Of a DNA stretch of 64,000 bases, positions 9,386-52,648 are shown piece after piece (within the stretch, counting starts at the first letter, position 1; every line of letters starts with the position of its first letter). Source of the DNA: an uncultured Clostridia bacterium (GTDB taxonomy: Bacteria; Bacillota; Clostridia; Oscillospirales; Oscillospiraceae); assembly GCA_946550725.1 (NCBI GenBank), contig CAMNQX010000005.1:1-64000 (forward strand), given 5' to 3'. The notes under the pieces were generated by a model. The model was not told the origin of the DNA and did not search any database. It was given only the letters and a program-made list of their open reading frames with translations. A program made the translations under genes and the position numbers.

Positions 9386-10228
9386 ATGGCTGACATCATC
9401 TCCGTCACCTCTCTGGACGACCCCCGGGTCGCCCCCTTCGCCCACCTCACCGAGCGGCAGCTTCGCTCCAAGGTGGAGCCGGCCATGGGCCTCTTCATCG
9501 CCGAAAGCCCCAAGGTCATCCACCGCGCCCTGGACGCGGGGTATGCGCCGCTGAGCCTGCTCATGGAGCGCCGCCACATCGACGGCCAGGGAGCGGAGGT
9601 CATCGCCCGCTGCCAGGCCCTGGCGGGAGAACATTTTCCGGTCTACACCGGCGAGGAAGCCGTACTGGCTCAGCTGGCGGGCTACCCCCTCACCCGGGGC
9701 GTTCTGTGCGCCATGCGCCGCCCCCCGCTTCCCGATGTGGACGAGCTGTGCCAAACCGCCCGGCGGGTGGCCGTGCTGGAGGACATTGTGGACCACACCA
9801 ACATCGGCGCCATCTTCCGCTCCGCCGCCGCTCTTGGGATGGACGCGGTGCTGCTCACCCCCTCCTGCTGCGACCCTCTCTACCGCCGCTCTGCCCGGGT
9901 GAGCATGGGCACGGTGTTTCAGGTGCCCTGGACCCGGCTGGGGGACGACCCGGCCGACTGGCCCCAGAAGGGGCTGGAGCGTCTCCACGCCCTGGGCTTT
10001 CTCACCGTGGCCATGGCCCTGCGCCACGACACCATCGACATCACCGATCCCCTGCTCACCGGGGCGGACAAGCTGGCTATCGTGCTGGGCACCGAGGGGG
10101 ACGGCCTCAAGGAGACCACCATCGCCCAGTGCCGCCACACGGTGAAGATCCCCATGGCCCGGGGGGTGGACTCCCTTAACGTGGCCGCCGCCAGCGCGGT
10201 GGCCTTCTGGGAGCTGCGGGCCAGGTAA
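9386..10228 (+). CDS. TrmH/SpoU-family RNA 2'-O-methyltransferase
   Basis: VAVLEDIVDHTNIGAIFRSAAALGMDAVLLTPSCCDPLYRRSARVSMG...GTEGDGLKETTIAQCRHTVKIPMARGVDSLNVAAASAVAFWELRAR: SPOUT motifs. Its stop codon lies inside the left att repeat. Confidence 0.92.
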   Translation: MADIISVTSLDDPRVAPFAHLTERQLRSKVEPAMGLFIAESPKVIHRALDAGYAPLSLLMERRHIDGQGAEVIARCQALAGEHFPVYTGEEAVLAQLAGYPLTRGVLCAMRRPPLPDVDELCQTARRVAVLEDIVDHTNIGAIFRSAAALGMDAVLLTPSCCDPLYRRSARVSMGTVFQVPWTRLGDDPADWPQKGLERLHALGFLTVAMALRHDTIDITDPLLTGADKLAIVLGTEGDGLKETTIAQCRHTVKIPMARGVDSLNVAAASAVAFWELRAR

Positions 10229-10238
10229 CCCCAGAGAC
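10222..10238 (+). repeat. Left attachment-site repeat CAGGTAACCCCAGAGAC
   Basis: Exact 17-bp direct repeat with 51860-51876; contains the TAA stop of the upstream methyltransferase. Confidence 0.9.
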
Positions 10239-10252
10239 TGAAAAGTCAAGAG

Positions 10253-10266
10253 TTAAATGCAGAAAA
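10253..10266 (+). repeat. Subterminal inverted repeat TTAAATGCAGAAAA (left end)
   Basis: Exact reverse complement at 51834-51847; 14 bp inside the left att core, versus 12 bp inside on the right. Confidence 0.75.
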
Positions 10267-10278
10267 TTATAAAAAATT

Positions 10279-11352
10279 TTAGAACAGGCTTTTATGGAGC
10301 GTAATCCCGGCGGTCGCAGCCCACTCCATGAGGGCCCGATCGGCGCACCGCCCGCCGAGGACTTCCCGCGGGTAGTTGTTGATCCACCGCTCCACCCATG
10401 CCACCCGCTCGTTTGAGATGGTGGAGAGGTTGGTCCCCTTTGGGATCCACCTTCGGATCAGGATGTTGGCGTTCTCGTTTGATCCCCGCTCCCAGGAGGA
10501 GTACGGGTGGCAGTAGTACACATGGGTCCGGCGCATTTTCGTCAAGCACGACCGCTCCATCCCTTCACAGTCCTGGAACTCTGAACCATTATCTACGGTT
10601 ATCGTCCGAAAGAGCCTCCGGAACATTCTGGAGCCCAGCTTGCGCTCCATCCGATCTATTGCTCCCACCACGCTTTCCGTGGTCCCGTCCGGTATCTTGA
10701 TGATGATTTCTTTCCGGAGCGCCCGTTCCGTGAACACCAACAGTCGGCTCACGTCTTTCTTCCCGCTCACAACGGTATCCATCTCCCAGTCCCCGAATTG
10801 TTTTCGCAGGTTGATCTCCTCCGGGCGGTCGTCAATGCTGTCTCCGTTTGGCAACCTGGCCGCCCGGACTTTTTTGTACTTCCTCTTCCGTTTACCGCGG
10901 CGCGGCAGGTCCTTGTTGGTCAGCCCCCAGAACACGCCCTTGTCGATGTAGGAGTATACTGTCCACTTTGAGAGCGTGACCGAGAACTCCAGACCGTCCT
11001 CCTCAATCTTCTCCAGCGCCGCCCTGGGCGAGTACCCCTCGTTTGCGATCTTGCTCTGTATGTACTCAGCCAGAGCGTAGTCACTCCCGATTTTCAGGGC
11101 TGGTCCCTTGGCGGCCAGCTCCGCTCGGTATTTGTCCTCCGCCACATCCGGGCAGTATACCTCCCGGTCTACCAGCTCCGTCGTTCTTTGGATGGCCTTC
11201 CCCCGCCGCAGTTCCCGGTATATGGTGCTGTTGTGGACGTGCAAAGCGTCTGCAATCTCCTGGACCGATTTGCGCTCCTTTCTCATTTTCTCAATCTTCA
11301 ATCTGTTTTTCCACGAAAGATGGCTGAACCGCCGCCCCTTTTCGCTTCCCAT
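10279..11352 (-). CDS. IS30-family DDE transposase, candidate phage integrase/recombinase
   Basis: 357 aa; N-terminal HTH (SVQEIADALHVHNSTIYRELRRG), DDE motifs FGDWEMDTV, ITVDNGSEF, YSSWERGSNENANILIRRWIPKG all present. Confidence 0.93.
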   Translation of the reverse strand: MGSEKGRRFSHLSWKNRLKIEKMRKERKSVQEIADALHVHNSTIYRELRRGKAIQRTTELVDREVYCPDVAEDKYRAELAAKGPALKIGSDYALAEYIQSKIANEGYSPRAALEKIEEDGLEFSVTLSKWTVYSYIDKGVFWGLTNKDLPRRGKRKRKYKKVRAARLPNGDSIDDRPEEINLRKQFGDWEMDTVVSGKKDVSRLLVFTERALRKEIIIKIPDGTTESVVGAIDRMERKLGSRMFRRLFRTITVDNGSEFQDCEGMERSCLTKMRRTHVYYCHPYSSWERGSNENANILIRRWIPKGTNLSTISNERVAWVERWINNYPREVLGGRCADRALMEWAATAGITLHKSLF

Positions 11353-11461: not shown

Positions 11462-11746
11462 TTATTTTTTCTCGGCCTCCAGCAGCTCTCCCGTTGTCAC
11501 GCCCAGGACCTCCGCCATAGCCCACAGCTCGTAGTCCTGTACCATGCGCTCTCCGCTCTCGATCCGGCTGATAACATCCTGCTCCAGGATCACCCCCTGG
11601 GTCTGCACCTTGGCGGCCAGCGCAGACTGTGACAGCCGCTTTTTTGTTCGCAACTGGCGCACCCGTTCCCCGGAGATGTTCCGGCGGCCATTCATATCGA
11701 TCACTTTCACCGTCGCCTCTCCCTTCGAGATATGGGTCATTTCCAT
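11462..11746 (-). CDS. XRE-family HTH transcriptional regulator (probable prophage repressor)
   Basis: ISGERVRQLRTKKRLSQSALAAKVQTQGVILEQDVISRIESGERMVQDYELWAMAEVLGVTTGELLEAEKK; classic HTH_XRE. Confidence 0.85.
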   Translation of the reverse strand: MEMTHISKGEATVKVIDMNGRRNISGERVRQLRTKKRLSQSALAAKVQTQGVILEQDVISRIESGERMVQDYELWAMAEVLGVTTGELLEAEKK

Positions 11747-29791: not shown

Positions 29792-30976
29792 TTACCTCCA
29801 TTCGTTGCTTCGGTTTCTCACGATCGTTTTGAGTTGCCGGATGTCCACCGGCTGAATGTACTTTTCCTGGATCTTGTAGCTGTCACAATGCCGGAGCTGT
29901 CCCGCCCGGCTCAAAAATCCCGCCGCCTGGTGGAAGGATATGTTCCTGCCCGTGGCCTGCTTCTTCTGGATCTTTCTGCTCTGCCTGGTCAGCCGCAGGA
30001 AGTTCCTGCCTCGCAGGGTGACGTGCTCGTGGTCAAAGCGGTATCCCACCGCCGCTACCCTCCGCGGGCGGCGCAGGCTCCGTTGCCGAGGCGGCAATAG
30101 GCGGTGTCTCTTTTCCGCCGCTCCCGTAAATCCGGTTCGGTATACCTGCCAGTTTCCCTTCATCTTCACGCCCAGGTCCGCCTCGAAGTGCCGCTCCAGG
30201 GCCTCGCGGGCCCGGTGCAGCTTGCGCTTGTTTGGGCCGAACAGGGTGAAGTTGTCCATGTGCCGGACCTCGTATTTCACGCCCGGATCCCGCTCCATCA
30301 GGTGGTCGGCCCGCTCCAGGTAGAAGTTCGCCAGCCATTGGTCCAGGTAAAACCCGATCTCGATACCCACCTTTCCACGGGCCAGGTCTCGGGCGGTCAG
30401 CCCCTTCTCCATGGCCCCGCCCAGTCCGCCGGGGTAGCACGTCACCTCCACCATCACCAGCAGCAGGAAGGTCTTGTCCTTGATCTTCCGCTCCAGAGCG
30501 TCCAGCAGACCCTCCAGCGGGATCGAGGGGTAGTAGTGCTTGATGTCCGCCTCCATGGCGTACTTGGTGCCCTTTGGGTCCTTCTGGAGCACCTGCATGA
30601 TCCGCTTCCGTACCCTCGCCCCGCCCCGGCCCGGAACAGAGGCGCAGGACCACGGGCTCATACCCCGCATGAGAACGTCCTGCATGGCCGTCACCGTGAG
30701 CTGGTGCATGATTGCGTCAGGGAAGAAGGGGATGGAGGATATTTCCCTCCACTTCTCGCAGTTCGGGTCGTAGATCGTTCTGTGGGTCGGCTGGCGCGGG
30801 GTGAAGTCGTGGTTCCTCACGATCTCCACCATCCGCGCCGTGTAACCCTCCACGTCCTCCAGGACCTGCCGCACACCCCGTCGGCGGCGTTTCCCTTTGG
30901 CGGCCTTGACGATACACCGCCTCACGAAGTCCGTGTCCTTCATTCGTTCATACAGAAAACCCACTCGTTTCGGCAT
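29792..30976 (-). CDS. Reverse transcriptase of a diversity-generating retroelement
   Basis: RT motif A MEADIKHYYPSIP, motif B GIEIGFYLDQWLANFYL, motif C YEVRHMDNFTLFGPNK; RBS AAGGAGG upstream of ATG at 30976; adjacent TR/VR pair. Confidence 0.93.
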   Translation of the reverse strand: MPKRVGFLYERMKDTDFVRRCIVKAAKGKRRRRGVRQVLEDVEGYTARMVEIVRNHDFTPRQPTHRTIYDPNCEKWREISSIPFFPDAIMHQLTVTAMQDVLMRGMSPWSCASVPGRGGARVRKRIMQVLQKDPKGTKYAMEADIKHYYPSIPLEGLLDALERKIKDKTFLLLVMVEVTCYPGGLGGAMEKGLTARDLARGKVGIEIGFYLDQWLANFYLERADHLMERDPGVKYEVRHMDNFTLFGPNKRKLHRAREALERHFEADLGVKMKGNWQVYRTGFTGAAEKRHRLLPPRQRSLRRPRRVAAVGYRFDHEHVTLRGRNFLRLTRQSRKIQKKQATGRNISFHQAAGFLSRAGQLRHCDSYKIQEKYIQPVDIRQLKTIVRNRSNEWR

Positions 30977-31108
30977 TTTCAAATGCCTCCTTGTTTGCCT
31001 TCGGTGCCGTTCAAATCCTCGCGGCTTACTAGGCCCCGTCCTGTGCGGCAAAATTTTCACCTAGGGGTGAGGAAAAGTCTACGCATTGGTGTCGTGGGTG
31101 AACAAGAA

Positions 31109-34154: not shown

Positions 34155-34527
34155 GTGCTCTTGCCTCCTCGCTGATGTACCCCTCCGCCGGGTCGTAGGT
34201 CGTGCCGAACCAGCGGAGGAAGTTGGCGTAGTGTTCGTTGTAGGTCTGCATGGTGTTCTGGTACTTGTTGTACTCCCCGTTGGCCTCGTCGATCTTGGCG
34301 CACAGCCAAAGGGTGTAGATGTCGTCGTGGGGCGGGGCCACCAGCAGCTCCGTCTCCATGTCCCGCTCGGCGGTGTAGGCGAAGTCCGCGATCTCCAGCG
34401 TCGCCAGAAGGAACACGTCGGCGGCCAGCCTGCCCTCCAGCTCCGCCAGCCACCGCACCTTCACGGCAGAGGAGAAGGCGTTGGGCTTCACCTCGTCCAC
34501 ATAGGCGATGGCGTCCTTGACCTTCAC
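34141..34527 (-). CDS. Phage protein of unknown function (head-tail/virion-associated)
   Basis: GTG start overlapping the upstream glycosyltransferase stop; [45 protein letters not shown]. Confidence 0.6.
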
Positions 34528-35600
34528 AGTTCCGCCGCCTCCTTCCCGTTTTCCCGCCGGAGGAGGGCCAGATTGTCCCGAACCCGCTCGTTGCCCGGAT
34601 CCAGCCGCAGGGCCCTTTCGGCCCATTCCTCCGCCTCCCTGGGACAGCCAATGTGCCACATGGCGACGGAAAGGATGTCCTCCACGCCGCCGCCCCAGGC
34701 TCCGCCGTCGTTGATGTACTCGTCGCTCTTGGTCTTGATGTCGGCAGCTTTATGGCCGTAGTAGGCGCAGGTCTCCCACGCCTCCTTGAAGTAGTAGACC
34801 CGCTCGGCCTCGTACCAGCTCTCCCGGATGTCCGGGGCCGTTCCAATGCCGCGCAGGGCCCAAAGCTCCGCCTTCTCCAGGTCGCCCAGGCCCAGGTAGC
34901 ACTCCGCCAGGTAGCGCATGGTGGCGGCTCGTTCTGCCCGCCAGGCGTTCCTCGTGCCCAGGTGCCGCACGAACTCCCGGATCGCGTCCTCCCAGCGGCC
35001 ATAGTAGAAATACTCTCGGCCCAGGTAGTGGGCGCAGCGGGGATCATCCTGGTTTTCCTTGGCGGCCAGCTTCAGCAGGGGAAGGTACTGCCCCCGGCTC
35101 TTGCCGTTGTCCGGGTGGTGGACCGTCTGCATGGCGGGCACTTCCACCAGGCACGGGCACTCCCTTTCATAGACCAGAACCTCGTGGACGGGGTAATGCC
35201 AATGCCACCCCCGCCTCGCGTGGGCCTTGCCCTGGAGGAAGGTGGTGTTGCCCCTGACGCAGGTGAACCTCGCCATGTCCGCCGCCGGGTGCCAGGCCTC
35301 CTCCAGCTTCTCCCGCCAGCCAGGGGACAGCTCCTCGTCCAGGTCCACGCACACGCAGATGTCCGTGTCCTCCGGGATCAGCCGCATGGACCGGTTGCGG
35401 GCCACGTCGAACCGCCAGGGCTCGATCCTCTCCTGACAGACGATAACGCCCATGTCCGCCAGCAGCTCCACGGTCTTGTCGGTGCTCCCGGTGTCCAGGA
35501 CGGCGATGTAGTCAGCCGGTGCAGCGGAACGGACGAACCGCTCCACGTTGGCCTCCTCGTTCTTTGCGATGGCGTAGACGCAGATTTTCAGCTTTTCCAT
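34524..35600 (-). CDS. Family 2-like glycosyltransferase with TPR-like C-terminus (phage-encoded)
   Basis: MEKLKICVYAIAKNEEANVERFVRSAAPADYIAVLDTGSTDKTVELLADMGVIV...ICVCVDLDEELSPGW (GT-A DxD-like), C-terminal repeats of TPR type. Confidence 0.85.
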   Translation of the reverse strand: MEKLKICVYAIAKNEEANVERFVRSAAPADYIAVLDTGSTDKTVELLADMGVIVCQERIEPWRFDVARNRSMRLIPEDTDICVCVDLDEELSPGWREKLEEAWHPAADMARFTCVRGNTTFLQGKAHARRGWHWHYPVHEVLVYERECPCLVEVPAMQTVHHPDNGKSRGQYLPLLKLAAKENQDDPRCAHYLGREYFYYGRWEDAIREFVRHLGTRNAWRAERAATMRYLAECYLGLGDLEKAELWALRGIGTAPDIRESWYEAERVYYFKEAWETCAYYGHKAADIKTKSDEYINDGGAWGGGVEDILSVAMWHIGCPREAEEWAERALRLDPGNERVRDNLALLRRENGKEAAEL

Positions 35601-35677
35601 TGAGCTGCCTCCTTGATAGAAAAGGAGGGGCGGGCGTAACCCCCGCCCCTCCTCTGTGCTTGTTGGTTGCCGATGTA

Positions 35678-36682
35678 TCAGCCCTTCAAGGTGTCCCCTC
35701 CGGTCACACCGCCGATGGCGGCAAAGCGGAAGTCGTTGAAGGTGGCGTTGAACCGGCTGCGGCCCTTCCACACATTGGCGTCGGTGTTCTCGTCGATGAA
35801 GGACTTGACCGCAAGCTGCACCCGGTCGTTCCACACCGCGCCGCCGTAGGTCTGGTTGTAGCTCTGGTCCATCAGGATCCAGGGCTTGGTCTCGGCGGTG
35901 ATGAACTGATTGAGGTAGCTCCAGACGATCACGGTCCAGCGACCGAACTGGAAGTTGAACCCGTTGTTGGCCGTGGCGGGATCCTTGTCCGCGCCGATTG
36001 CGGCGAACACGTCCTTCTTCAAGGAGGCGATGTCCGGGATCAGGATGGTGGTGGGAGCCACGTCCAGGATCTCGTCGTTGTCGCCCCGGAAGAGGTGCAT
36101 GGTGGTCTCCATCTTGCTCAAAGCGTCCACGGAGAAGGCGTCGGAGAACAGATTGCTCTGCTTCTTGCCGGAGACCTTGCCCACATGGTTCTTGCTGAAC
36201 AGGGGCACACCGTCGGCGGTGGTGATGTCAAACTCCTTGCCCTTGAACTTCACCTTGCCGCTCCCGGTGATAGCCCCGCCGTAGAGGGCGGCGCCAAACA
36301 TCTCGCGGGTCCGCTTGTAGCTTGTCATAAAGGCCGCCGGGGCCTTTTTCAGGTCCATCAGCTTGCCGTCCTCCACCATCTCCTGGGAGACCCGGAAACG
36401 GTCCTTCCAGGTGTCGTAGACCAGCATTTTCTTGTAGCCCTCCTGCATCCCATCCTCGGGATAGGCGCCGTTCTCGCCCACGGGCTCGAAGCCGCTCATG
36501 GCCGTCATGGTGGTGTAGAGGTCACCGAAGTTCTCGCTGGTCCCCATCAGGAACAGCTCTTTCAGCACGCTCTCCTGCTCGAACTGCTCCCCGCGGCTTT
36601 CGAGGAACATACGGATCGGGGCCTGGACGTTGCCGTATACGCTGTCGGCAAGGCCGGAGCCCTCGGAAAAAATGATCTTCAT
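35678..36682 (-). CDS. Major capsid protein
   Basis: 334 aa between scaffold/decoration genes and tail genes; MKIIFSEGSGLADSVYGNVQAPIRMFLESRGEQFEQESVLKELF... Confidence 0.78.
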   Translation of the reverse strand: MKIIFSEGSGLADSVYGNVQAPIRMFLESRGEQFEQESVLKELFLMGTSENFGDLYTTMTAMSGFEPVGENGAYPEDGMQEGYKKMLVYDTWKDRFRVSQEMVEDGKLMDLKKAPAAFMTSYKRTREMFGAALYGGAITGSGKVKFKGKEFDITTADGVPLFSKNHVGKVSGKKQSNLFSDAFSVDALSKMETTMHLFRGDNDEILDVAPTTILIPDIASLKKDVFAAIGADKDPATANNGFNFQFGRWTVIVWSYLNQFITAETKPWILMDQSYNQTYGGAVWNDRVQLAVKSFIDENTDANVWKGRSRFNATFNDFRFAAIGGVTGGDTLKG

Positions 36683-48939: not shown

Positions 48940-49331
48940 GCGTGCTCCTCCTCCCCAAGGCAAGAACCAAGCCTTATATACCCTCTCAACGGCACGTTCA
49001 GGTACAGCGCAGCGGCCTTACCCTCTACCACGAACATCCTAGCCCGCACCAGCAAGGCGTTTTGGATTGGATCCTCTGTTGCCTCTAAAAGCACTTCATC
49101 GGAGCTCAAAAGTTCTTTTGCCAGCGCCTCGCACAGACGGTTCTTGCCGTACCACACCAACTCCGGCACCTGCATTTTGGTTCTCTCCCAGTCGTCCAGT
49201 CGGCAGGTGGCTTGTAATATGCGATACGAAATATCCGCCTTTACAGGGTGAATGGTCTGGCTGTATTCCACGGTGTACCCGCCCAGCTTGCGGATCAGCC
49301 AAAGGCGCAGCCGTTCAAGCAGCTTTCTCAC
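48936..49331 (-). CDS. Phage hypothetical protein
   Basis: 131 aa, GTG start overlapping the previous stop (GTGA); MRKLLERLRLWLIRKLGGYTVEYSQTIHPVKADISYRILQATCRLDDWERTKMQ. Confidence 0.6.
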   Translation of the reverse strand: MRKLLERLRLWLIRKLGGYTVEYSQTIHPVKADISYRILQATCRLDDWERTKMQVPELVWYGKNRLCEALAKELLSSDEVLLEATEDPIQNALLVRARMFVVEGKAAALYLNVPLRGYIRLGSCLGEEEHA

Positions 49332-49807
49332 GGGTCAATACCCCCCCCCCGCATCACACGCCCCAGCAGGGACGTGTAGAGCTCCTTGTAGGTGTCCCGC
49401 TCGGCGGTGACTTTCACCAGGTCCTCCGCCCGGTTGCCCGGCATGATCTTCACCTGGCGCACACCGCCCAGCTTGTCGCAGACCTCCCGGCGGATAGCCT
49501 CCAGCTCCTCCGACGGCAGGGAAGTGATGTAGTGGAGCAGCCTGGACTTGTCCACGGTGTAGAGCTGCCCGCACACGGCCCAGCTCTTCCTGTTCAGCCC
49601 GGACACCGGGACGCAGTTTGCCCGGCCCTCATGGTCGGAGGCGGAACACATCACCACCCACACCACGCCGTTGTTGTCGTTGAAGTTCTCGTCGCTCACG
49701 ATTACAGCAGGGCGGTCTTTCAGCATTTCGTGTCCGGTGCCGTGTGGAATGGAGCACAGATAAACCTCCCCAGGCCGAGGCAATTCGCGCAAATCATAGG
49801 TGTTCAT
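49328..49807 (-). CDS. PemK/MazF-like protein
   Basis: ELPRPGEVYLCSIPHGTGHEMLKDRPAVIVSDENFNDNNGVVWVVMCSASDHEGRANCVPVSGLNRKSWAVCGQLYTVDKSRL: MazF/PemK-like pattern. Confidence 0.65.
   Translation of the reverse strand: MNTYDLRELPRPGEVYLCSIPHGTGHEMLKDRPAVIVSDENFNDNNGVVWVVMCSASDHEGRANCVPVSGLNRKSWAVCGQLYTVDKSRLLHYITSLPSEELEAIRREVCDKLGGVRQVKIMPGNRAEDLVKVTAERDTYKELYTSLLGRVMRGGGIDP
49341..49350 (-). repeat. Poly-G tract (G10) at the 3' end of the PemK-like gene
   Basis: cccccccccc on + strand; context ATGC(G)10TATTGA. Confidence 0.95.
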
Positions 49808-50013
49808 CCCTCCACCTCCAGCTTCAACCACCAAAGCGGGTCGTTGCGCTCCTCGTTGTGCGGGCAGTTCTCGGCGTCGCAGTTCTCCGACGGGCACTTA
49901 TCGCAGAACTCCCGATGGAAACGCTCGTCCCACGGCCCCTCCGCGATAGGCAGAGACCCCAGGAAATCTCCCAGGGTCTCCGGCGAGGCGGTGATCTTCT
50001 CGAAGTTCGTCAC
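49804..50013 (-). CDS. Small Cys-rich phage protein (possible zinc binding)
   Basis: MTNFEKITASPETLGDFLGSLPIAEGPWDERFHREFCDKCPSENCDAENCPHNEERNDPLWWLKLEVEG. Confidence 0.6.
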   Translation of the reverse strand: MTNFEKITASPETLGDFLGSLPIAEGPWDERFHREFCDKCPSENCDAENCPHNEERNDPLWWLKLEVEG

Positions 50014-51500: not shown

Positions 51501-51803
51501 TTAGGCTTCAGCAGGGCGGCGGCCCTGGTTGCGCCGGTTCTGTTGGTACACGGTCTCGCCCTGCTCTGCGCTATACTTCCGGCGGAAGTTCTTGTCCAGA
51601 ACCTCTCGACCCGCCTCGTCGTAGACCTGGCCCCTCCGCAGCTCGGTATATACCGTGGCCTGGCTGATCCCCAGCTCGGCGGCGATTTCCACCGGCGCGG
51701 CGTTGTCGTCTTCCCACATCCTCTCGATCTTCTTTCGGTCGTCCAGCGTCAGGTTTTTCACTTCATTCACCTCGTTTTTATTCGCTTCCGCCATATCCGG
51801 CAA
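51501..51803 (-). CDS. Stand-alone IS30-like N-terminal HTH domain protein
   Basis: LTLDDRKKIERMWEDDNAAPVEIAAELGISQATVYTELRRGQVYDEAGREVLDKNFRRKYSAEQGE; parallels the transposase N-terminus LSWKNRLKIEKMRKERKSVQEIADALHVHNSTIYRELRRG. No DDE domain. Confidence 0.8.
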   Translation of the reverse strand: MPDMAEANKNEVNEVKNLTLDDRKKIERMWEDDNAAPVEIAAELGISQATVYTELRRGQVYDEAGREVLDKNFRRKYSAEQGETVYQQNRRNQGRRPAEA

Positions 51804-51811
51804 AAAAATAA

Positions 51812-51842
51812 TGCAGAAAAAGGTCTAAAAACCTTTTCTGCA
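51812..51842. terminator. Hairpin at the right phage end (terminator-like leftward, overlaps the inverted repeat)
   Basis: TGCAGAAAAAGGT-CTAAAA-ACCTTTTCTGCA; read leftward it is followed by ATTATTTTTTT. Confidence 0.6.
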
Positions 51843-51847
51843 TTTAA
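51834..51847 (-). repeat. Subterminal inverted repeat (right end), reverse complement of TTAAATGCAGAAAA
   Basis: TTTTCTGCATTTAA; exact inverted match to 10253-10266. Confidence 0.75.
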
Positions 51848-51859
51848 TGTACTACTTCA

Positions 51860-51876
51860 CAGGTAACCCCAGAGAC
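51860..51876 (+). repeat. Right attachment-site repeat CAGGTAACCCCAGAGAC
   Basis: Exact 17-bp match to 10222-10238. Confidence 0.9.
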
Positions 51877-51943
51877 GCTTTCTCCCCTTGCCTTTCTTTT
51901 TTATCTTTGCTATAATAAGGTATTCTGGAATTGCTGTCGGGAG

Positions 51944-52648
51944 GTGGACAAGCTGAGTTCCCTGCAAAATTTCCTTCAGAGCTTTGACCTGCACGCCTTT
52001 CTCATAACGGTCTTTTCCGCTGCGGCCGCTCTGTTCTGCCTCACCGTCCACGAGCTGTCCCACGGCGCGGTGGCCTACGCCCTGGGCGACCCCACCGCCA
52101 AAGACGAAGGGCGGCTCACCCTCAACCCCATCAAGCACATCGACCCCCTGGGCCTGGTGCTGATGATCACCGCCCATGTGGGTTGGGCCAAGCCCGTGCC
52201 GGTGGATATGCGCTACTTTAAGCATCCCAAGCGGGGCATGGCCCTCACCGCCCTGGCGGGTCCGGCCTCCAACTTCCTGCTGGCGTGGGTGTTTTTGCTG
52301 CTGGCCAGTCTGCTGCTCCGGGTGCTCTCCCTCTCCGCCCCGTGGCAGCTCTATGTGCTCATCTTTCTAGTCAATGCCGCGCTGCTGTCCATCGGCCTGG
52401 GGGTGTTCAACCTGTTCCCCATCCCACCCCTGGACGGCTCCAAGATCCTGTTTTCCTTCCTCCCCGACAAAATTTACTACACCATCCTCCGCTACGAGCG
52501 TTATATCATGCTCCTGCTGCTGGCGCTGGTGTGGTTCGGGGTGTTCAGCGGGCCGCTTTCCACGCTGATCCTCTGGGCGCTTCGCGGCCTCTGTTTCCTC
52601 AGCGGCCTGCCCTTTGATTCCGCTTTGCTCCTGTTGGCCATGGCGTAG
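51944..52648 (+). CDS. Site-2 protease family (M50) membrane metallopeptidase
   Basis: TVHELSHGAVAYALGD (HExxH), FNLFPIPPLDGSKI. Confidence 0.88.
   Translation: MDKLSSLQNFLQSFDLHAFLITVFSAAAALFCLTVHELSHGAVAYALGDPTAKDEGRLTLNPIKHIDPLGLVLMITAHVGWAKPVPVDMRYFKHPKRGMALTALAGPASNFLLAWVFLLLASLLLRVLSLSAPWQLYVLIFLVNAALLSIGLGVFNLFPIPPLDGSKILFSFLPDKIYYTILRYERYIMLLLLALVWFGVFSGPLSTLILWALRGLCFLSGLPFDSALLLLAMA

Follow-up and report, generated by a model that had tools for sequence, protein, structure and literature searches.

Inverted repeats just inside both ends of a prophage raise the question of how such an element enters and leaves the chromosome, and what its ends do to the expression of its genes while it is resident. 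The window analysed here, a stretch of 64,000 nt (positions 1 to 64,000) of contig CAMNQX010000005.1 from an uncultured Clostridia bacterium (assembly 1.76 Mb), carries a prophage of 41,623 bp (10239-51861) that is identified as such by matches to a major head protein, portal and terminase between its ends; tail, reverse-transcriptase and methyltransferase matches also lie in its interior. The explanation that we favour, to which we assign as a whole a probability of roughly 80%, is that of a temperate phage with a split early promoter and its own IS30-family transposase, which moves by copy-out/paste-in transposition and inserts at host promoters. Set against the open-access literature, the split promoter at the phage ends, the terminator built from an inverted-repeat arm and the targeting of host promoters are new, whereas IS30 junction promoters, the IS30 integrase of phage Lagaffe and the promoter targeting of TnGBS are known parts. 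Coordinates are collected in Table 1.

Table 1. Features of the prophage ends, adjoining phage genes and host flanks (window coordinates)
Feature	Position	Strand	Remarks
Left copy of target-site duplication, GGTAACCCCAGAGAC	10224-10238	.	Overlaps stop codon of host SpoU-type methylase gene; identical to 51862-51876
Left (transposase-side) tip, inward TGAAAAGTCAAGAG	10239-10252	-	Tips of relatives end at same place, with host DNA beyond
Predicted -35 half, TTGACT	10244-10249	-	Points out of prophage; left ends of relatives have TTGAC[AT] here
Left inverted-repeat arm, TTAAATGCAGAAAA	10253-10266	+	14 nt from tip; own-pair covariation
IS30-family DDE transposase, putative integrase	10279-11352	-	357 aa; HTH_38, rve, phrog_4646
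HTH_3 regulator, repressor candidate	11462-11746	-	Adjoins transposase gene
Stand-alone HTH_38 protein	51501-51794	-	Homologue of transposase N-terminus; first gene behind predicted joined promoter
Terminator-like hairpin and T-tract	51802-51846	-	5' arm is the right inverted-repeat arm; overlaps predicted start site
Right inverted-repeat arm, TTAAATGCAGAAAA	51834-51847	-	14 nt from tip
Predicted -10 half, TACATT	51846-51851	-	17 bp from -35 when joined with 2 bp; aligns with CATAAT of G001C5
Right (HTH-side) tip, inward TGTGAAGTAGTACA	51848-51861	-	Homologous to TGTGAGATAGCATAAT in G001C5
Right copy of target-site duplication, GGTAACCCCAGAGAC	51862-51876	.	Matches left copy; placed by homologous ends
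Predicted host promoter -35, TTGCCT	51888-51893	+	Exactly 11 bp outside duplication
Predicted host promoter -10, TATAAT	51911-51916	+	17 bp from -35; reads away from phage into M50-peptidase gene
Host Peptidase_M50 gene	51944-52648	+	Behind targeted promoter

The transposase gene lies at the left end of the prophage and the stand-alone HTH gene at the right. As expected of an IS30-family enzyme, the transposase combines an N-terminal HTH domain (HTH_38, above cut-off) with a DDE domain: the match to phrog_4646 has an E-value of 6e-129, residues D192, D254 and E293 are invariant across five relatives, and the rve match reaches E 3.5e-6 but stays under the gathering score. Several other genes of the prophage merit mention in their own right. 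A 3372-aa phage protein (12765-22880, minus strand) with MuF C-terminal and PBECR5 nuclease-like domains (Pfam) is possibly a giant ejected or polyvalent protein; a reverse-transcriptase gene (29795-31060, minus strand; phrog_1423, weak RVT_1) possibly belongs to a diversity-generating retroelement; and a match to a phage beta-1,4-glycosyltransferase family (34527-35834, minus strand) sits amid structural genes. The early region holds a PemK/MazF-like toxin gene (49331-49897, minus strand), and Lagaffe has a MazF-like gene at a comparable position.

A preliminary description of this DNA had reported an exact 14-mer inverted repeat, TTAAATGCAGAAAA, and both copies are indeed present, at 10253-10266 on the plus strand and 51834-51847 on the minus strand. 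These are the only matches in the window at up to two mismatches (0.13 expected), no further internal copies being found there, and no third exact copy occurs anywhere in the 1.76-Mb assembly. The 2-nt offset between the arms reported in the same description vanishes once the right tip is corrected; this tip starts TGTGAAGTAG rather than TGAAGTAG as formerly read, and both arms then lie exactly 14 nt from the ends. Among related phages the exact 14-mer is not conserved, but its position is, as is the match between left and right ends within each phage: own arms agree at 11.3 of 14 positions vs 9.7 of 14 for swapped partners, and none of 10,000 permutations scored as high. Exact 14-bp arms at 14 nt from the tips, paired in relatives, are what the terminal inverted repeats of IS30-family elements would lead one to expect, and the earlier suggestion of transposon-like ends fitting the IS30 transposase is supported by arms that are conserved in position and covary between both ends of related phages. 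Outside the shared arms, the ends are asymmetric. The arms are, as far as these comparisons indicate, part of the ends used by the phage-encoded IS30-family transposase, and because the stand-alone HTH protein and the N-terminus of the transposase are homologues (both HTH_38), it is plausible that the two proteins share binding to the arms.

The prophage is flanked by a direct repeat, which in its raw form measures 17 bp and which homologous ends set at 15 bp: because the closest relative known from both ends, G001C5, has the tip TGTGAGATAGCATAAT, the window duplication is GGTAACCCCAGAGAC and the tip falls at 51861. Both ends were fetched for 20 elements including that of the window, and a flanking repeat was present in 18; a second set of 11 prophages brings the total to 29. 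This second set includes G154, which was read by eye and is one of nine validation elements without a flanking repeat in the first script; in the remaining no-repeat validation elements the ends lie on different contigs or come from different copies. For five prophages the second end gave no match. Raw repeat lengths, which can be inflated by chance matches at the edges, were 15 bp in 19 of the 29, 16 bp in four, 17 bp in three, 18 bp in two and 14 bp in one.

The preliminary description took this repeat for an att core, a reading under which the prophage would have integrated by site-specific recombination and the inverted repeats would be arm-type binding sites. While a direct repeat of 15-17 bp flanking a prophage is what tyrosine-integrase systems display, related prophages inserted elsewhere carry repeats that agree in length and not in sequence, with weak base preference inside the duplication, and three loci (L035, L036 and L037) represent one phage family at different sites, with left ends that diverge at the same base. 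Additionally, the contig of the window has no match to PF00589 or PF00239 (tyrosine and serine recombinases), which leaves the phage outside the class that uses such integrases, and the tips of circular relatives are only 2 bp apart. A core shared between attP and host was not found in these comparisons, and we reject the att-core reading as having almost no chance of being correct. The repeat is instead a 15-bp target-site duplication with a different sequence at every site, which also departs from the 2-bp target duplication of IS30 itself. A clean empty counterpart of the window site was sought in five genomes of the same genus and not found; the methylase gene is conserved there and the intergenic sequence is not, and the M50 gene is kept nearby only in L291, with ~470 bp more between.

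Circular forms of related phages define the ends from the other side. Scans of genome and viral contigs yielded 178 loci with a transposase match, and in 27 of these the HTH gene lies beside the transposase gene, as it does in circular relatives; the others reach varying flanks or contig ends past the conserved left tip. A search with an HTH alignment found right ends in 37 genomes. The transposase gene adjoins the HTH gene in phages Lagaffe, nd12, nd4 and Dulem virus 34, and the short DNA between the two genes therefore represents the joined ends. Just 2 bp separate the tips in circular relatives, and near-identical circles differ only in this 2-nt spacer (GG in nd12 vs GC in L019; CT in L113 vs AT in L115). 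One assembly, G154, contains both states: along its scaffold an integrated right end is followed by a run of N and then by a junction of joined ends, and the integrated left end lies ~45 kb off. With a slash between flank and phage end, its right flank reads ...CAAATTCCTCAAAAA/CGCCCCC and its left end ...CTTGACAAACGGC/CAAATTCCTCAAAAA, so that CAAATTCCTCAAAAA is the target-site duplication, and its junction reads ...CTTGACAAACGGC-AA-CGCCCCC, though in this one assembly the adjoining run of N makes a misjoin or scaffolding artefact possible. The spacer AA is identical to the two nucleotides that close the right flank, whereas the left flank opens with CA. Such a match would result from an attack of the left 3' end on a position two bases beyond the right tip, which is how the IS30 route has been described (PMC9333248). 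Circles abutted at 2 bp are thus seen in G154 and in related phages, and a circle of the window phage is predicted. A near-identical prophage of Lagaffe was sought in IMG/VR and not found, the best match having 80% protein identity.

Joining the ends would also assemble a promoter. The predicted joined promoter of the window is TTGACT-N17-TACATT, of which the -10 matches only 4/6. Throughout the 18 prophages with flanking repeats, a -35 (mean 5.7/6) lies on the left end and a -10 on the right, and a 2-bp junction between the ends would set these boxes 17 bp apart in 13 prophages, 18 bp apart in four and 16 bp apart in one. In the integrated state, host DNA takes the place of the -35 beside the right end and matches at 1.9/6, vs 5.7/6 in the joined state. 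The same arrangement was scored in circular loci picked by gene order alone (HTH gene after transposase), 23 of the 27 being non-duplicate. Their best -35/-10 pairs average 10.1/12 vs 8.25 in dinucleotide shuffles, and a score of at least 10 is reached in 19 of the 23, which share ancestry, vs 0.9 expected; four loci (L011, L114, L124 and L166) are not significant individually, and the pair in L177 does not fall in a recognisable junction and probably matches by chance. Best-pair spacing is 17 bp in 22 loci and 18 bp in one, and the joined boxes point at the stand-alone HTH gene. Judged by sequence only, the ends have the junction promoter of IS30-family elements: integration splits a predicted phage promoter whose halves stand ~17 bp apart only when the ends are joined.

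Two other accounts of these boxes were weighed. According to the first, the phage transposes replicatively in the manner of Mu, its ends are sites for the transposase and nothing more, and the promoter-like boxes belong to the sequence that this enzyme recognises and form no promoter, an account consistent with transposase-encoded mobility, with terminal repeats and with the location of TTGAC inside the conserved left end. However, the two ends share symmetric arms but carry different boxes (-35 left, -10 right), spacing holds near 17 bp despite differing spacer bases, circles exist, and the duplication measures 15 bp vs the 5-6 bp of Mu-like phages. Moreover, the relative Lagaffe packages from cos, whereas Mushu, from the same strain, has the host-DNA ends of Mu-type phages (PMC5883640). 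A Mu-like reading is not supported by these features and we consider it improbable.

The second account, which appears to us rather unlikely, accepts the joined promoter as such and has it serve mainly transposition, via an HTH protein that regulates the transposase, with lytic genes under a conventional repressor. The junction promoter of IS30 does drive its transposase (PMC9333248), homology links the HTH protein to the N-terminus of the phage transposase, and an HTH_3 regulator gene adjoins the transposase gene. Yet the same-strand genes behind the HTH gene include those for methyltransferase, replication initiation and terminase, and in the 18 prophages no phage promoter of at least 10/12 occurs in the first ~150 bp from the right tip, although the region further in may hold some. 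In preference to this account, we infer that the joined promoter is active and controls the early genes. The data would also be compatible with another early promoter lying downstream of the HTH gene, and the candidate repressor (11462-11746) could silence the prophage without a split promoter.

The right end carries a second predicted signal, in which the inverted-repeat arm pairs with a second inverted copy that precedes a T-tract. When folded at full length, the hairpin of the window reaches -17.0 kcal/mol with a stem-to-U gap of 2 nt, vs -7.7 kcal/mol and 9 nt when folding begins at the predicted start of the joined promoter. Across 39 right ends, six of which (including that of the window) were refolded with a corrected T-tract position, the means are -16.7 kcal/mol and 1.4 nt for the full fold and -8.7 kcal/mol and 6.7 nt from the predicted start. 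It follows from the folds that the complete terminator would be present in a transcript arriving from outside but not in a joined-promoter transcript, and the terminator is accordingly predicted to act on outside transcripts only.

On the host side, insertions are marked by promoters. When a match of at least 9/12 to TTGACA-N16..18-TATAAT is counted as a host promoter, 13 of the 18 prophages have a sigma70-type promoter that reads away from the phage and begins at a distance of exactly 11 bp from the outer edge of the duplication, ten times on the HTH side and three times on the transposase side; the background of 0.025 per offset over the 18 sequences leads to an expectation of 0.05, or 0.2 with four offsets per side. 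For validation, 11 prophages outside the set used to find the rule were scored, and eight have the 11-bp offset when ambiguous duplication edges are allowed (0.03 expected; 0.12 with four offsets per side), while one is off by one base. The targeted promoter of G154, scored by hand, is TTGATT-N17-TATGAT at 11 bp out. Among left flanks available from one side only, a promoter stands at the matching distance in 24 of 98 vs 0.37 expected. Promoter proximity might in principle be a by-product of intergenic insertion or of survival, insofar as insertions in essential genes would be lost, but the promoters occupy one exact offset, 11 bp, and not an intergenic spread, with adjacent offsets near background, and we regard such an origin as exceedingly improbable. 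The insertion site is, on these alignments, set by the host promoter, with the fixed-distance insertion upstream of promoters known from TnGBS-type elements; this targeting and the architecture of the ends are both established at the level of DNA sequence.

In the mechanism that we propose, the phage would integrate via copy-out/paste-in transposition by its own IS30-family transposase, each insertion generating a 15-bp duplication whose outer edge would usually fall exactly 11 bp upstream of a host promoter -35. The transposase, and perhaps the HTH protein also, would bind the arms, and the transposase would recognise its target either by the promoter DNA itself or by the RNA polymerase that occupies it. 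Transcription from the joined promoter would cover the HTH gene together with the early genes that follow; integration itself would silence these genes by parting -35 and -10, and they would be switched on once a circle forms or a phage with an intact junction infects. The right-end hairpin would stop transcripts entering from outside, and joined-promoter transcripts, devoid of the outer 5' stem, would escape termination. Promoter activity, termination and HTH binding are the steps that we infer. A more far-reaching formulation, in which integration is the lysogeny switch, an IS circle-junction promoter has been taken over as early lytic promoter, the terminator is obeyed by foreign transcripts only, and landing upstream of host promoters, at one set distance, is possibly guided by RNA polymerase, has in our estimation even odds of being right.

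Several described systems share parts of this design. IS30 forms a circle with 2-bp spacing in which the -35 and -10 halves of the joined ends build a junction promoter (PMC9333248, PMC7780238), and several IS families build fusion promoters at joined ends (PMC7780238). The phage resembles IS30 in its IS30-type DDE transposase, inverted terminal repeats, 2-bp circle spacing and predicted joined-end promoter; it differs in that this promoter points at the HTH and early genes where that of IS30 drives the transposase, and in having ~40 kb between its ends, a 15-bp rather than 2-bp duplication, host-promoter targeting and an added terminator hairpin. TnGBS and related Mutator-superfamily elements (p-MULT) insert 15-17 bp upstream of sigmaA promoters (PMC3942029). 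Like the phage, TnGBS is a large element with a DDE transposase, circles with short flank-derived spacers and a fixed distance upstream of promoters. However, its transposase family is unrelated, it is conjugative and not viral, and its spacer measures 6-10 bp, while the phage has 26 bp from tip to -35 and a 15-bp duplication; with its IS30-type transposase, the phage does not belong to the TnGBS type. The phage combines an IS30-like mechanism with TnGBS-like target choice and is a full member of neither group, because its duplication exceeds the 2 bp of IS30 and its transposase falls outside the Mutator superfamily. Long target duplications are also known for IS1630 of Mycoplasma fermentans, an IS30-type element whose duplications measure 16, 23, 25 and 26 bp in strain M64 (PMC3317919); these vary in length, whereas those of the phage are fixed near 15 bp.

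The closest described phage is FP_Lagaffe (Lagaffevirus, Faecalibacterium), which uses an IS30-type transposase, 52% identical to that of the window, as integrase and has the HTH gene beside the transposase gene in its joined genome. As far as the available portion of that study extends, it reports direct repeats at the prophage ends, which its authors found surprising, and contains no analysis of target sites, a junction promoter or promoter targeting (PMC5883640). The present reading offers an explanation for these repeats. It also describes a physical, sequence-readable route by which a phage could tie expression to integration state without a repressor, and it suggests a second origin, in a phage lineage of IS30 type, for the fixed-distance promoter targeting known from Mutator-type elements. 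Among 297 genomes sampled from the host order, 46 contain transposases of the phage's family, ordinary insertion sequences counted in, and the arrangement may therefore be common in gut bacteria.

Free-standing and filamentous relatives display related ends. Contig C1 of genome G286 carries six copies (L308-L313) of a complete-looking 1278-bp IS30-family IS, whose tip, GGTTGATTGTAAAAT, is homologous to that of the phage and whose ends would join to TTGCAA-N17-TAAAAT; it differs from the phage in its 13-bp duplication (14 bp once) and in having the transposase directly behind the joined promoter, and it is possibly close to the ancestral element. None of the six copies has a host promoter at the 11-bp offset, and because this IS shares the joined-end geometry without promoter targeting, the targeting appears, on six IS copies, to be specific to the phage lineage. 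In bajarodino virus 13 (L018), an inovirus, a gene for a 45%-identical transposase is followed by TTGCAA-N17-TAAATT in the same junction geometry, and the end-joining system may therefore span filamentous as well as tailed phages.
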